Shown: positions 5,464 to 63,749, counted from the first letter of the stretch. The stretch is 64,000 nt of DNA from Psychromonas sp. L1A2 (GCF_009828855.1 NZ_WUAG01000002.1:620001-684000); one strand, 5' to 3'. A program made the numbers and translations. Notes: generated by a model not told the origin, from the sequence alone.

Positions 5464-7881
5464 ATGAATAATATTATTATGGTATATCAATTATATAATG
5501 ATGCGATGCAATTAACGCCAAGACACAGGGAGACTTTTGTAAAGAGCCAATGTAATGATAAAAAAATACTAAAACAGGTATTAGCATTAATTTCAGCAGA
5601 CCAAAATGAGTTCACTTTATCTGATCATATAGCAAAAGAAATTAATTCATTCTCAACACAAAATTTAGTTAAAGTAGGTAATATTGTTTCTGTATATGAA
5701 TTGACTCAACACCTTGGTCAAGGTGGCATGGGGACAGTTTTTAAAGCAGTGCGCATAGATGGGCGGTTTGAACAAACCGTTGCGATTAAAGTTATTTCCT
5801 CAGCACTGTATCCTTTTTTTAATAGTAATAAACTAATTAATGAAGCTAACTTTATGGCTAAGCTTAACCATCCGAATATCTGTTCAGTGTACGATGCAGG
5901 TATTACTGAAGACGGGTTACATTATATTGTAATGGAATATTTGGATGGTCAGGAGATATCGAATTACTTTAAAAATAAAGGTTTCTCCTTAAATGAAAAA
6001 CTAACAAGTTTTGCGACCCTGTGTACATCAGTAAATTATGCACATCAAATGCAAGTGGTACACGGTGATTTAAAACCAGCTAATATCATCATTAATCAAG
6101 ATCAGCAGATCAAAGTGCTTGATTTTGGTATTTCCCAAGTAATCAATAACCCAAATACAGCTTCTCAAGAACACAATTCAAAACTGTTAAATGGTATTTC
6201 GAAAGGTTTTTCTAGCCCTGAATTAATTAATGGAGCCCCTGCTAGTGTATATAGTGACGTTTATGCTTTAGGCCAAATATTATCTGTATTAATCACACAA
6301 CATATATCAAGCAATACTGCGTACAACAAAGAAATTAATGCCATTATAAATAAAGCTACCGCCTCTTTAACGACTGAGCGTTATGCGTCTGTATCCGAAC
6401 TGAAACATGATATTAATCTATTTTTAACTGGGCATGTTGTTACTGCGTATCAACCTAATAACATATTTAGACTTAAAAAATTTGTTTATAAACGTCACCC
6501 TATTTCAGTTTCTTTAGCGGGTATTTTTACAACAATTTTAATTTTTTTGATGGCGAGTTTATTTATTCAATACCAGAATCTAGAAATGGAGAAACAACAA
6601 ACAGATATTATGTTAGGGAAATTTTCATTAGTCTTAGATTTGGATTTTGATAGAAAGTCGGCGGTTGAGCTCAGTTTAGCGAATAACTATGCAAGTCGCG
6701 GAGAAAATGAAAAATCAGCATTGCTTTATAATAAAATAATTACTCGATTTGATAGTTTAATTAATACCAATATCGCCTTTAATGCAGGGCAAAAACTAAT
6801 AAATTTACTCGTCAAAAGTAATCAGCTAGATTTAAATTTAAATTTAAATAACCATAACTTATTAACGCTTAAAAATAACATTGAATTTATCCCTGGTACA
6901 AAGTTACCAATTAACTCCGCACAAGCCTTTTTTTATTACCAACTAATCAATATTGGTTATGAGCGTGACAACAAAAATATTAATAAGACTTTTAATATAC
7001 ATACTAAATTAATTCAAGATATTAAAAGTACTTACTGGCAAGAACTCACTAACCAACAAAAACAAACAATAAATTACTCCTATGCTATTCAAGGTGAAAT
7101 AGAAACGTTAACTCAACTCCAGCGTTCATTTTATTTTCAACAACAAAATTCATCATTATTATCCTATATAACAAAGATCCGAGAAGCTGTTATAGAGCAG
7201 TTATTTCCTCAAAAAACCTACTTAGTTAAACAAGAAAAGCTCAAGCAGTTTCTTGAAAACAAGCCTATATTTTGGGCTGGAACGCACGAAAACGATATTG
7301 AACATGAAGGGGAAAATACAGCTCTATTCTCTAAAGGAACCATCAAAACTAAAAACTTTAATGCTTTATATAAATTGAGTGGTAGCCTGATCACAATGGA
7401 ATCTGGTGAAGGTTCTGAAACCGACGAAGCTATTTATGTTTCTTCAACTTTAGCACTAACTGTACCACTACAAAATAAAGATCTCATTATACTCACTTAT
7501 GAAAATCTTATTAATAATAAAAAAAATCAAAAATGGTCAAAAAAAGAGCTACTAACAGGTCCTTGGTATCATATTTACGACCAAGCCATTGACCAAAAAG
7601 AAGTAATTCAACCAGTATTAATGAAAATAAATTTTACTGAGTCATTTGCTACCTTAAATATCAATGAAAAATCCATAACTGTACCATGGGAACTTAATCA
7701 GCAAGGAGTGCTGGAATTACATTTTTCAGATAATGATCAAGCAACATTACAAATTATAAAACAGACAACTGACGAAGAAATAATTATTACTATGAATAAA
7801 ACTTCAGGCCTGCAATCTCTGTTTATTAAAGATAAAAAACTTGCTCAACATTTATTAAAAAAGTGGACATCACTTTTATAG
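5464..7881 (+). CDS. Membrane Hanks-type Ser/Thr protein kinase with extracytoplasmic sensor-like domain
   Basis: This 805-residue kinase has four parts. An N-terminal helical region (about 7-65) is typical of proteobacterial Ser/Thr kinases. The kinase domain (about 78-322) has glycine loop GQGGMG (85-90), VAIK lysine K109, catalytic loop HGDLKPAN (200-207, Asp202; the usual HRD Arg is Gly), DFG 220-222 and SPE 251-253. One membrane helix lies at about 349-369. The outer part has a helical, TPR-like segment (about 395-600) and a C-terminal beta-rich domain (about 622-805). That last domain resembles residues 259-439 of the lipoprotein at 8793-10112. The sigma factor starts 32 bp downstream, so the kinase probably phosphorylates it, as PknT does EcfP in Vibrio. 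AAGGAA lies directly before the start codon, a rather short spacing. Confidence 0.93.
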   Translation: MNNIIMVYQLYNDAMQLTPRHRETFVKSQCNDKKILKQVLALISADQNEFTLSDHIAKEINSFSTQNLVKVGNIVSVYELTQHLGQGGMGTVFKAVRIDGRFEQTVAIKVISSALYPFFNSNKLINEANFMAKLNHPNICSVYDAGITEDGLHYIVMEYLDGQEISNYFKNKGFSLNEKLTSFATLCTSVNYAHQMQVVHGDLKPANIIINQDQQIKVLDFGISQVINNPNTASQEHNSKLLNGISKGFSSPELINGAPASVYSDVYALGQILSVLITQHISSNTAYNKEINAIINKATASLTTERYASVSELKHDINLFLTGHVVTAYQPNNIFRLKKFVYKRHPISVSLAGIFTTILIFLMASLFIQYQNLEMEKQQTDIMLGKFSLVLDLDFDRKSAVELSLANNYASRGENEKSALLYNKIITRFDSLINTNIAFNAGQKLINLLVKSNQLDLNLNLNNHNLLTLKNNIEFIPGTKLPINSAQAFFYYQLINIGYERDNKNINKTFNIHTKLIQDIKSTYWQELTNQQKQTINYSYAIQGEIETLTQLQRSFYFQQQNSSLLSYITKIREAVIEQLFPQKTYLVKQEKLKQFLENKPIFWAGTHENDIEHEGENTALFSKGTIKTKNFNALYKLSGSLITMESGEGSETDEAIYVSSTLALTVPLQNKDLIILTYENLINNKKNQKWSKKELLTGPWYHIYDQAIDQKEVIQPVLMKINFTESFATLNINEKSITVPWELNQQGVLELHFSDNDQATLQIIKQTTDEEIIITMNKTSGLQSLFIKDKKLAQHLLKKWTSLL

Positions 7882-7913
7882 AAAAGATTCAATACTATTA
7901 ATGAGGTAAAGCC

Positions 7914-8495
7914 ATGGAAGAAAGTGAATTAATTAAATTGATAAAAGGTTGGCAAAATAAAGAAGCTGTTGCAACGCAAATTCTAATGGGAATGACTTAC
8001 CATCGAATAAAGGAACTCGCTTTAAAGCATCGTGAAAACATGCCTGAAAATGCAAACACGGCTATGTGTTCGCAATCTGCAACGGATTTAGCACACGATG
8101 TTTATGAACGTTTGAATAAAGCTGAATCTAGATTGCCAATTACAACTCTCAGGGAGTTTTATAGTTATCTTAATGCGACTGTAAGAAACACATTTATTGA
8201 TCATCATAGAAAATTAGTTGAAACAAAATCGAGAAATCCTGAACGCACAAGCTTAATGTCGCCCAGAGCAATTTCACAGCAAGCGAAATGTATTGATGAG
8301 TCTTATGAGCTTTCGTCTTTATCGTTAAATATTGATGCATTAGAAAAACAATATCCACGACAAGCTGAAGCTGTAGAGCTAAGGTATTATGCACAGCGCT
8401 CTAACAAGGAAATTGCAAGGTTATTAAGTGTATCGATACGCACTGTAGAAAATGATTTAAGATTTGCAAAAGCTTGGATTAGGTTACAAATGTAG
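7914..8495 (+). CDS. ECF sigma factor, kinase-linked (ECF43-like)
   Basis: This 193-residue RNA polymerase sigma factor has region 2 (about 18-100; SATDLAHDVYERL at 55-67 and FIDHHRK downstream) and region 4 (about 135-190; AVELRYYAQRSNKEIARLLSVS, then SIRTVENDLRFAK as recognition helix). There is no cognate anti-sigma gene; the adjacent gene is a Ser/Thr kinase. In ECF43-type sigma factors, phosphorylation of a Thr in region 2 by the linked kinase allows RNA polymerase binding, and Thr57 here sits in the comparable segment. The site assignment is inference. AATGAGGTAAAGCC precedes the ATG. It shares the kinase's transcript (32-bp gap). Confidence 0.92.
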   Translation: MEESELIKLIKGWQNKEAVATQILMGMTYHRIKELALKHRENMPENANTAMCSQSATDLAHDVYERLNKAESRLPITTLREFYSYLNATVRNTFIDHHRKLVETKSRNPERTSLMSPRAISQQAKCIDESYELSSLSLNIDALEKQYPRQAEAVELRYYAQRSNKEIARLLSVSIRTVENDLRFAKAWIRLQM

Positions 8496-8729
8496 AATGG
8501 CTTGGCTATAACTAACGTTTATATAAAATAACACGAGATGCTGCTTCTCTGTATTTACGTACTAAACCTCCTCTATACTGCTAACCACTACTAAACGATT
8601 CACTTTAATCGTATAAAAAATAGAAATGTCGATGTTATTATTTTTATAAAATAATAAATTGTGGTTTTTTATGATTTTCCCGTACCTATTATTAAGTGGT
8701 ATTTAAACGTACATTTTTATTCATCTTCA

Positions 8730-8766
8730 GCAAAACAGTTAATAAAATTTTGATTAACTGTTTTGC
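8730..8766 (+). promoter_or_regulatory. Perfect 13-bp inverted repeat upstream of lipoprotein gene
   Basis: The arms GCAAAACAGTTAA (8730-8742) and TTAACTGTTTTGC (8754-8766) are perfectly complementary around an 11-nt AT-rich loop. The repeat ends 26 bp before the lipoprotein ATG. It may be an operator or a leader hairpin for that gene. A terminator for the sigma factor is less likely, because the stop is 235 bp away and only a short T run follows. Confidence 0.55.
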
Positions 8767-8792
8767 GTATAACTCTATAAAGGAATAATAGA

Positions 8793-10112
8793 ATGATGAA
8801 AAAAACGTTACTTTCCCTTAGTATTATTAGTTTGCTTTCTGCATGTGGCGGGTCTTCATCTGATAGTAATGATAATACAGCGAATTCAAACTCTGGGACA
8901 GAATACCGTGTAATCGATGGTTATTTAGTGAACGCAGATGTATGTATTATTGAACAAGATACGACAGACTGTACCGATATTGGACAAACTGATAATGACG
9001 GAATTATTGTTATTCCTGAAAATTTTACTGCAGGAAAAATTGTTGTAACAGCAACAGCAGGACAAACAAGTGATAAAGATAGCGTTGGCTTTATTGGCCA
9101 AACTTATCAAATGATGGCGAACATTTCCACAGAGACTCCAAATGTAATTACTCCTTACACGACTATAGATGTATTAGACACCAGTCAATCAATAGCTGAT
9201 ATTGCTGATAACTTAGGGCTTGATGAAGTATTATTAAGTGGTGATTATGTTGCTTCAAACGCATCACAAAAAGCACAAGTACATGCATTAGCTCGCGCAT
9301 TAGCAATCCAATTATCAACGCAGCAAGAAGAAAATGATGTTGCTGAATTGATGTCACAAGCAACTGAAATCAATGACTATATTGAATCTGAATTAATTAA
9401 TAATGGCGTAGATTTAGATTCATACAATATTTTTATAAATGATGAAGGTGAAACGACACACAAATCCTTAATATCCTCATTATCTGACTTTCTAGAAGGT
9501 AACGAATTAACTCAGTTTAGTCTTAACACTAGTTACTTTAAGGAAGAAGGTACAAATCAAGTTACTTTTTCTGATGGAGTAATCTACTTTGGCAGTGAGA
9601 TATTCAATTATAAAATAGACGGAAATCAGTTAACTATATCAATTAATTCCGACGAGGAAACGGATCAATTTATTTATGTCAGTAATGAATTATCATTAGC
9701 TGTCCCTTTAGCAGAACAAGATTTAAGTGTAATGTACAAACAGACTGATGAAATAAGCACTTGGACTAAAGATGATCTAATTGGCGAAACATTCTATTTT
9801 GTTTTTGATGACTCTGCAGACAGTAAAATACCAGACCCATCTCTCGTTAAAATCAGCTTTTCAGAGTCAACAGCAATAATGTTAGAAGAAGGTCAAACAC
9901 AAGAAATAAACTGGTCTTTAGACAATGGATTATTAACACTTGATTTAAGTACTCAAGGTGAAGCTGACTTAATACTTTCACCATACTTTGCAGATGACAA
10001 TATAACACTCATTAAGAGTGTAGATGATAATCGTCTTTTAACTTTAATCGCTGTTAAAGATGAAAACTTAGCAACAAATATTATTAGCCAATGGTTATTA
10101 TTGAGTAAATAG
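8793..10112 (+). CDS. Lipoprotein with domain shared with the neighbouring kinase
   Basis: This 439-residue lipoprotein has signal peptide MMKKTLLSLSIISLLSAC with lipobox LSAC and lipidated Cys18. A Ser/Asn/Asp-rich linker (19-36) follows, then a carboxypeptidase-regulatory-like beta domain (about 39-130, GYLVNADVCI...GQTDNDGIIVI). A helical middle section comes next, and then a C-terminal domain (about 259-439). The C-terminal domain aligns with the kinase's residues 622-805: shared landmarks are IYVS-x2-L-x-L-x-VPL-x3-DL, W-(S/T)-K-x2-L, and P-x-L-x-KI-x-F-x-ES. The protein probably sits in the outer membrane or faces the periplasm and works with the kinase-sigma factor pair, as sensor, ligand or target. 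This role is inference from position and the shared domain. It has its own leader with a perfect inverted repeat. Confidence 0.85.
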   Translation: MMKKTLLSLSIISLLSACGGSSSDSNDNTANSNSGTEYRVIDGYLVNADVCIIEQDTTDCTDIGQTDNDGIIVIPENFTAGKIVVTATAGQTSDKDSVGFIGQTYQMMANISTETPNVITPYTTIDVLDTSQSIADIADNLGLDEVLLSGDYVASNASQKAQVHALARALAIQLSTQQEENDVAELMSQATEINDYIESELINNGVDLDSYNIFINDEGETTHKSLISSLSDFLEGNELTQFSLNTSYFKEEGTNQVTFSDGVIYFGSEIFNYKIDGNQLTISINSDEETDQFIYVSNELSLAVPLAEQDLSVMYKQTDEISTWTKDDLIGETFYFVFDDSADSKIPDPSLVKISFSESTAIMLEEGQTQEINWSLDNGLLTLDLSTQGEADLILSPYFADDNITLIKSVDDNRLLTLIAVKDENLATNIISQWLLLSK

Positions 10113-10173: not shown

Positions 10174-10197
10174 AGCCACTTTATAGTGGCTTTTTTA
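10174..10197 (+). terminator. Rho-independent terminator after lipoprotein gene
   Basis: The hairpin AGCCAC-TTTATA-GTGGCT is followed directly by a T run, 62 bp after the lipoprotein stop. The rest of the 380-bp gap up to 10492 is AT-rich with no recognisable feature. Confidence 0.85.
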
Positions 10198-63044: not shown

Positions 63045-63749
63045 TCACACTTGTTGATAACTGACTACGAGAGATTGCCAATCAGCTTCACACCAATGAA
63101 TAGATCTCTTTTTAAGCTCTTTACGAAAAGAACGTAATAAACGTTGTAGGTTATTCTCCTTCCAACTATCTCCAACTTGTTGATAACATTTATCGAAATC
63201 AATAATCCAAACCCGACCATCTTTATCTAATAAAATATTATGAATATTCAGATCAGTATGATTGACCTGTGCTTGATGCAGTTTTTTAATTTCTTTACCA
63301 ATATTTAAATATTCATGTTTCGTTAATTCTCTTTGCTGTAGCAGATCCACTAGATCTGACGCGGCAGGAATTTTTTCAGATAAAATATTAGCTTTATACA
63401 ATAAACCACAACGTTTAACATTAGCGGCAATGGGTGTTGGTACATTAACGCCTTGCCCTTGCAAATGATTTAATAAATGAAACTCTGCGATACTTCGCGC
63501 TTTTTGATAGCCAGTAAAAAAATAGCTATCAGATATTATTTTTCCAAATAATCCACCTCGACAATAGTGACGTAATGCGGCTTGTATGCTATCAAGCTCA
63601 ACAAACCAAGTCGTCCCACGCCCTTGCGCGCTACCGATAACCTTCGCTTTATTCTGCCAATATTGTGGATCAAAACATTCAGATACATCATCAATCAACT
63701 TTTCATTGTAAATAGTATATGCACCTTGGCTTTGAATAATTTTGAACAT
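63045..63749 (-). CDS. kdkA: Kdo kinase KdkA
   Basis: This is a 234-residue kinase of the InaA/KdkA group, which phosphorylates Kdo at O-4 of the lipid A-Kdo core. The catalytic loop is HTDLNIHNILLD (Asp in HTDL), and the metal-binding motif is WIIDFDKC, in the place of DFG. The N-terminal ATP-binding half carries GRGTTWFVEL and the invariant RHYCRGGLFGK. It is convergent with waaA, 162 bp between stops. In organisms with a monofunctional WaaA, KdkA replaces the second Kdo by phosphate; which type of WaaA this is cannot be read from sequence by eye. Confidence 0.94.
   Translation of the reverse strand: MFKIIQSQGAYTIYNEKLIDDVSECFDPQYWQNKAKVIGSAQGRGTTWFVELDSIQAALRHYCRGGLFGKIISDSYFFTGYQKARSIAEFHLLNHLQGQGVNVPTPIAANVKRCGLLYKANILSEKIPAASDLVDLLQQRELTKHEYLNIGKEIKKLHQAQVNHTDLNIHNILLDKDGRVWIIDFDKCYQQVGDSWKENNLQRLLRSFRKELKKRSIHWCEADWQSLVVSYQQV

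Follow-up and report, generated by a model that had tools for sequence, protein, structure and literature searches.

A putative kinase-controlled ECF43 sigma factor of Psychromonas with a predicted lipoprotein target that shares a domain with the kinase

The DNA considered here, 64 kb of Psychromonas sp. L1A2 (NZ_WUAG01000002.1:620001-684000; this full stretch is called the window, and gene starts are those of simple open reading frame (ORF) calling), carries three consecutive genes for a Ser/Thr kinase, an extracytoplasmic function (ECF) sigma factor and a lipoprotein. They were found exactly where an earlier note, made from the sequence alone, had placed them, and it is the relation between their products that is of interest, since that note had also proposed, by eye, that kinase and lipoprotein have an outer domain in common. 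The features on which the argument is built are listed below.

5464..7881, + strand: transmembrane Ser/Thr kinase of 805 amino acids, PknT/PknS-like (ORF; Pkinase match, 3e-41; K109, D202, D220)
5695..6408, + strand: kinase catalytic domain, residues 78-315 (Pfam PF00069 match)
6505..6570, + strand: single transmembrane helix of the kinase, about residues 348-369 (hydrophobic segment; helix in the model)
6577..7233, + strand: helical, tetratricopeptide repeat (TPR)-like outer region of the kinase, about residues 372-590 (AlphaFold model all-helical; middling matches to TPR structures)
7237..7878, + strand: kinase copy of the shared domain, lipocalin-like by model, residues 592-805 (BLASTP E=2e-21 against the lipoprotein; beta model with lipocalin-like matches)
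7914..8495, + strand: ECF43-type sigma factor of 193 amino acids, its gene starting 32 bases past the kinase stop (Sigma70_ECF, 2e-16; Sig-70_X6, 1e-28)
8082..8084, + strand: Thr57 codon of the sigma factor, aligned with the phosphorylated Thr of ECF43 factors (SATD versus NTTA/STTA; alignments and literature, PMC8999054, PMC13147305)
8659..8689, + strand: predicted ECF43 promoter of the lipoprotein gene, TTGTGGTTTTT-N11-CGTACCTAT (conserved in three Psychromonas; top match of the Vibrio-only matrix in 64 kb; sole exact match in the genome)
8793..10112, + strand: lipoprotein of 439 amino acids, C18 with Gly at +2 (ORF and lipobox)
8904..9476, + strand: N-terminal half of the lipoprotein, about residues 38-228, common to lipoproteins of Vibrio ECF43 loci (hhalign E=6e-26)
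9477..10109, + strand: lipoprotein copy of the shared domain, lipocalin-like by model, residues 229-439 (BLASTP against the kinase; model)

The common domain is real. In a BLASTP comparison of the whole proteins, kinase residues 592-801 align with lipoprotein residues 229-434 at 29% identity (E=2e-21), an alignment that includes the landmarks picked by eye and rules out that the two domains resemble each other by chance. When the outer regions of the Psychromonas kinases are compared with the lipoprotein family, profile against profile, the match is significant as well (E=5e-21). Judged by these alignments, the two domains are homologous. A search of the whole genome found the domain only in the kinase and lipoprotein genes. 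It passes no curated cut-off in Pfam or NCBIfam, where only sub-threshold, lipocalin-like matches were obtained (DUF5640, Lipocalin_4), and the model of the kinase domain has VIA Z scores of 8-10 to several lipocalin-like chains over about 80-100 residues. In its modelled form the domain may resemble a lipocalin-like barrel.

The kinase and the sigma factor have the characters of a known signalling core. The catalytic residues are intact (K109 in VAIK, D202 in HGDLKPAN, D220 in DFG) and, with one membrane helix, as noted earlier and found as a hydrophobic segment near residues 348-369, and with an outer region, the protein falls among the PknT/PknS-type transmembrane Hanks kinases. Its gene adjoins the sigma gene (32 bases apart), with no gene between them and no anti-sigma gene. 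In the sigma factor, a Thr at the region 2.2 phosphosite replaces the acidic DxxD motif and is followed by Asp, as by Glu in EcfK; this Thr57 is invariant in the nine of nine diverse ECF43 sigma factors that were aligned. The Sig-70_X6 match (1e-28) falls below the cut-off of that model, and the ECF43 assignment suggested before is supported by the kinase neighbour, by T57 in the SATD/NTTA position and by the lack of an anti-sigma gene. Phosphorylation of the region 2.2 Thr acts as a switch in EcfP and EcfK (PMC8999054, PMC13147305), and by analogy phosphorylation of Thr57 would do so in Psychromonas.

The lipoprotein, whose signal peptide has the lipobox MMKKTLLSLSIISLLSAC-GG (LSAC-G, with C18), is tied to the sigma factor by the predicted bipartite promoter that sits 103 bases upstream of its gene. 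The pattern TGTGGTTTTT-N11-CGT is conserved at equal distance before the lipoprotein in an alignment of three Psychromonas species. When spaced word pairs were sought in Vibrio without supervision, TTACGG-N16-CGTG turned up before 17 of 30 non-redundant long lipoproteins, as against at most three in shuffled sequences, and in most loci the sites read TTACGGTTTTT...CGTGTCTTG. Such a bipartite shape, with CGT in the -10 element and spacing of this kind, is typical of ECF promoters. A matrix built on Vibrio sites only ranks window position 8655 first in the 64 kb, both strands considered, with a score of 10.2, below which 16 of 20 random windows stay; an earlier matrix, from long Vibrio lipoproteins only, also placed the window site first when ungapped, with an absolute score not above that of random windows.

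The promoter is close to unique within a genome and stands before nearly all lipoproteins of kinase-ECF43 loci in Vibrionaceae. The best-site score is clearly positive for 36 of 39 long lipoproteins (the sites of which went into building the matrix) and for five of five short ones at ECF43 loci of Vibrionaceae, and it is negative in each of 24 lone family members without ECF43, as in all of 47 kinase, 37 MID and 49 sigma genes, MID being an exported protein encoded at many Vibrio loci. Sites outside the training set, namely those of the three Psychromonas and of two Vibrio lipoproteins divergent from the kinase (L129, L130), are positive and score above every lone lipoprotein. An exact consensus stands at the lipoprotein in 18 of 23 ECF43 genomes and one with a single mismatch in the remaining five; one exact match occurs elsewhere and none in seven genomes without ECF43, and the genome under study has a single one. 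The suggestion that the lipoprotein is the target of the sigma factor is thereby strongly supported, and we predict, with high confidence from this promoter, that it is the main direct target. Autoregulation of sigma factor and kinase by the same promoter was rejected, as the element was not found upstream of either gene, and so was a wide regulon, as the consensus at one mismatch gave nothing beyond background. In one Vibrio locus a second lipoprotein (L122, G043:C1:52643) has its own exact promoter match.

The loci nearest to that in the window are those of P. arctica DSM 14288, with a sigma factor 92% identical to the present one, and of Psychromonas sp. B3M02. Among 24 Psychromonas genomes, these two and the present one have the trio of genes, and in all three the kinase and the lipoprotein alike carry the domain; other Psychromonas species have the lipoprotein alone. 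The conserved trio and the promoter rule out that the lipoprotein is a random neighbour. The three kinase copies group together as a clade (support 97/95) in a tree built from 37 domains, and this clade is placed beside the lipoproteins of the Psychromonas trios (81/89). Since lipoprotein copies are widespread and kinase copies are known from three species only, the simplest history would be that the domain was copied from lipoprotein to kinase within Psychromonas.

Several of these loci have peculiarities of their own. In P. arctica a transposase gene (L025:4620-5537) has come between the catalytic part of the kinase and its membrane helix, the sigma factor and lipoprotein being intact. At four other ECF43 loci of Psychromonas and relatives (L159, L160, L161, L162), the kinases are only 374-383 amino acids long, end just past the membrane helix without an outer sensor, and have a small membrane protein encoded two genes upstream. 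In one Psychromonas genome that lacks the kinase-sigma pair, at least four paralogues from the lipoprotein family stand in tandem (L028:7692-14465).

For a wider comparison, 59 ECF43 loci of Vibrionaceae were collected, which come from related species so that the counts are not independent. The genes of V. maritimus and V. variabilis run kinase, MID, sigma factor, lipoprotein; over its length the lipoprotein is a homologue of the one in the window, and the outer region of the kinase is short and lacks the shared domain. The kinase precedes the sigma factor in 49 of the 59 loci, most of which have MID as well as an exported protein or lipoprotein after the sigma factor. In nearly all of these 49 the N-terminal half of the lipoprotein is homologous to that in the window (E=6e-26 between families), which makes the lipoprotein a regular member of PknT/EcfP-type loci. 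It is kept beside the kinase-sigma pair in Vibrio as in the three Psychromonas species, and the earlier note needs correction in that a lipoprotein next to the pair is common at ECF43 loci of Vibrionaceae and no peculiarity of the present locus.

A second case of such sharing is present in Vibrio. In the common layout the protein just after the sigma factor has about 530 amino acids and an N-terminal membrane anchor, mostly without a lipobox, and its C-terminal region recurs, over about 390 columns, in the lipoprotein encoded at that locus (hhalign E=1e-35). Pairwise BLAST detects the match within about 20 of the 49 loci; with a stricter profile, the number of loci where both copies are found is similar or smaller, depending on how lipoboxes are called. 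The start codon of the membrane-anchored partner lies at most about 75 bases from the sigma stop, and often overlaps it or follows 4-7 bases on, so that the partner belongs to the sensor operon; it lacks the promoter element that the lipoprotein of the same locus has. Strong matches to this Vibrio domain lie within 8 kb of an ECF43 sigma gene in 48 of 50 cases; of 53 genomes with ECF43, 33 have such matches, as against one of 144 without (again, species are not independent, and a Fisher value serves only as a guide). The Psychromonas and Vibrio domains both look lipocalin-like, and a comparison of the two (hhalign E=0.0003, 72 columns in matching register, probability 40) is only suggestive of homology. 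From gene number and order, VP0057 to VP0053 of V. parahaemolyticus should be kinase, MID, sigma factor, membrane-anchored protein and lipoprotein; VP0055 is EcfP in the literature, and VP0053 has two interacting lipocalin-like barrels according to a published AlphaFold analysis (PMC10734457). No second copy of the domain was found on kinase or MID in the Vibrio loci with a short lipoprotein, nor in kinase-sigma-lipoprotein loci without the membrane partner. A matched pair at every ECF43 locus is ruled out by these short-lipoprotein loci and by the sigma-then-kinase loci of other families in the order, which have no such lipoproteins. LuxR, a regulator of quorum sensing, binds upstream of the PknT kinase gene VP0057 (PMC2628434), and cell density may therefore feed into the circuit.

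Three further features of the window, two of them in the lipoprotein transcription unit, are the following.

8730..8766, + strand: hairpin in the predicted 5' untranslated region of the lipoprotein gene (z = -6.1); P. arctica has a hairpin of different sequence and B3M02 none
10174..10196, + strand: intrinsic-terminator-like inverted repeat AGCCAC-TTTATA-GTGGCT with a T run, which closes the lipoprotein unit (read from the sequence)
63174-63353, - strand: sub-threshold kinase-like stretch near the window end

The closest known system is EcfP/PknT of V. parahaemolyticus (ECF43; VP0055/VP0057), which likewise has a kinase gene next to that of an ECF sigma factor, the conserved phosphosite Thr in region 2.2 and no anti-sigma factor, and Vibrionaceae loci of this layout have the same class of promoter-driven lipoprotein as Psychromonas. 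They differ in that the outer region of the kinase is short and the domain shared with the lipoprotein is on the separate membrane-anchored protein encoded just past the sigma gene, whereas in Psychromonas the shared domain is a fused part of the kinase. In Xanthomonas citri the periplasmic-TPR kinase PknS phosphorylates the ECF43 sigma factor EcfK, but this pair controls a type VI secretion system and no lipoprotein pair is reported for it (PMC13147305, in which the term lipoprotein is absent). In logic only, BlaR1/MecR1 and beta-lactamase of Staphylococcus aureus are alike, since the outer domain of the sensor is homologous to a class of induced enzyme (PMC9834060, PMC5957439). The proteins are unrelated, and signalling there is by a metalloprotease and repressor instead of a kinase and sigma factor. 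VtrA/VtrC and ToxR/ToxS of Vibrio sense amphipathic ligands with a lipocalin-like periplasmic barrel, and the structural matches to the present domain include ToxS, but their barrel is made by two different proteins and the output is a transmembrane transcription factor without a kinase. We know of no domain sharing with a target gene in these systems. To call the Psychromonas locus an undescribed system, as was done at first, is thus too strong, because its core is of the known ECF43/PknT type; the dedicated lipoprotein target and the domain shared by sensor side and target were not found described in the literature surveyed, which excluded the original EcfP paper (Iyer et al. 2020), where target or promoter may already be reported.

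The domain homology, the conserved trio, the conserved Thr and the conserved promoter were computed here, and an ECF43-type circuit with a dedicated lipoprotein target, the sensor of which is a copy of the ligand-binding domain of that target, is what we consider somewhat the likelier explanation for them. The outer region of the kinase, with a TPR-like part as in PknS and the lipocalin-like domain, would sense a signal in the envelope; the activated kinase would phosphorylate Thr57, allowing the sigma factor to bind RNA polymerase and to transcribe the lipoprotein gene from the promoter at 8659-8689; and the lipoprotein would act as effector, binding or handling the signal molecule in the envelope, so that the same kind of barrel would both measure and answer the signal. 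By inference both domains would have the same class of ligand, probably a lipid or lipopeptide. Polymyxin, a lipopeptide, is a known inducer of EcfP/PknT (PMC8999054), which, speculatively, would suit a lipocalin-like sensor.

Some observations weigh against this scheme. No PDB match to the structure models is significant by Foldseek, and the models are moderate (mean pLDDT, the predicted local distance difference test score, 55 and 70); the two domains, at 29% identity, may have come to differ in the ligands they accept; the tree gives modest support to the position of the kinase clade beside the Psychromonas lipoproteins; and in about half of the ECF43 loci of Vibrionaceae no second copy of the C-terminal domain of the lipoprotein can be recognised, so that domain sharing is not required.

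The main rival is negative feedback, in which the lipoprotein made under the sigma factor pairs with the kinase domain or mops up the ligand and so turns the kinase off. Both the target status of the lipoprotein and the common domain would fit such a loop, and envelope accessory proteins that tune a sensor are known (CpxP, for CpxA, and QseG). We nevertheless regard it as rather unlikely, though by far not negligible: an identity of 29% is low for a self-pairing interface, and most genomes with this lipoprotein family have no ECF43 at the locus, so that its basic role is independent of the kinase. Relevant here are Photobacterium-like genomes (genus guessed; L170, L171, L176) in which the genes that flank the Vibrio ECF43 locus enclose a short and then a long lipoprotein but no kinase or sigma factor, the regulator having been gained or lost beside its target; these too suggest an independent role for the lipoprotein. 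The effector role is preferred because the family exists without the kinase and because BlaR1 provides an example of a sensor that copies the protein it induces.

A co-sensor role, with an outer-membrane lipoprotein upstream that presents the signal to the kinase by domain contact and whose own induction would be positive feedback, seems improbable. Activators of kinases among outer-membrane lipoproteins do exist (QseG), and at ECF43 loci the N-terminal half of the lipoprotein is kept while its C-terminal domains vary with the partner, but the Vibrio loci with short lipoproteins have no matching domain on kinase or MID. Equally improbable is ordinary reuse of a common envelope beta-domain, fused to the kinase without functional tie to the target: the domain is indeed widespread in lone lipoproteins (it is present on lipoproteins in 46 of 197 Vibrionaceae genomes, about nine times at ECF43 loci), but among kinases the copy is confined to those with their own lipoprotein target next door, as in each of the three trio genomes, and the unrelated-looking Vibrio domain, almost confined to ECF43 loci, shows the same sharing between sensor operon and target.

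If the circuit with a sensor copied from its target is extended to both groups, the kinase-controlled ECF43 systems of Vibrionaceae and Psychromonas may be one-target circuits in which the sensor side copies the ligand-binding domain of the target lipoprotein, an arrangement that would have arisen two or more times, each time with another domain, while sensor and effector co-evolved by domain swapping; this wider proposal is a tentative one, to which we give a little less than even credence. The sigma factor and its nearly private promoter could be put to laboratory use as a switch gated by phosphorylation. For the kinase-controlled ECF43 sigma factors, the output of which has been an orphan, a concrete promoter and a dominant target gene are predicted, and a ligand for the sensor is suggested, namely whatever the target lipoprotein binds. 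The question of the signal of PknT-type kinases is thus made approachable by means of a soluble pair of homologous domains.

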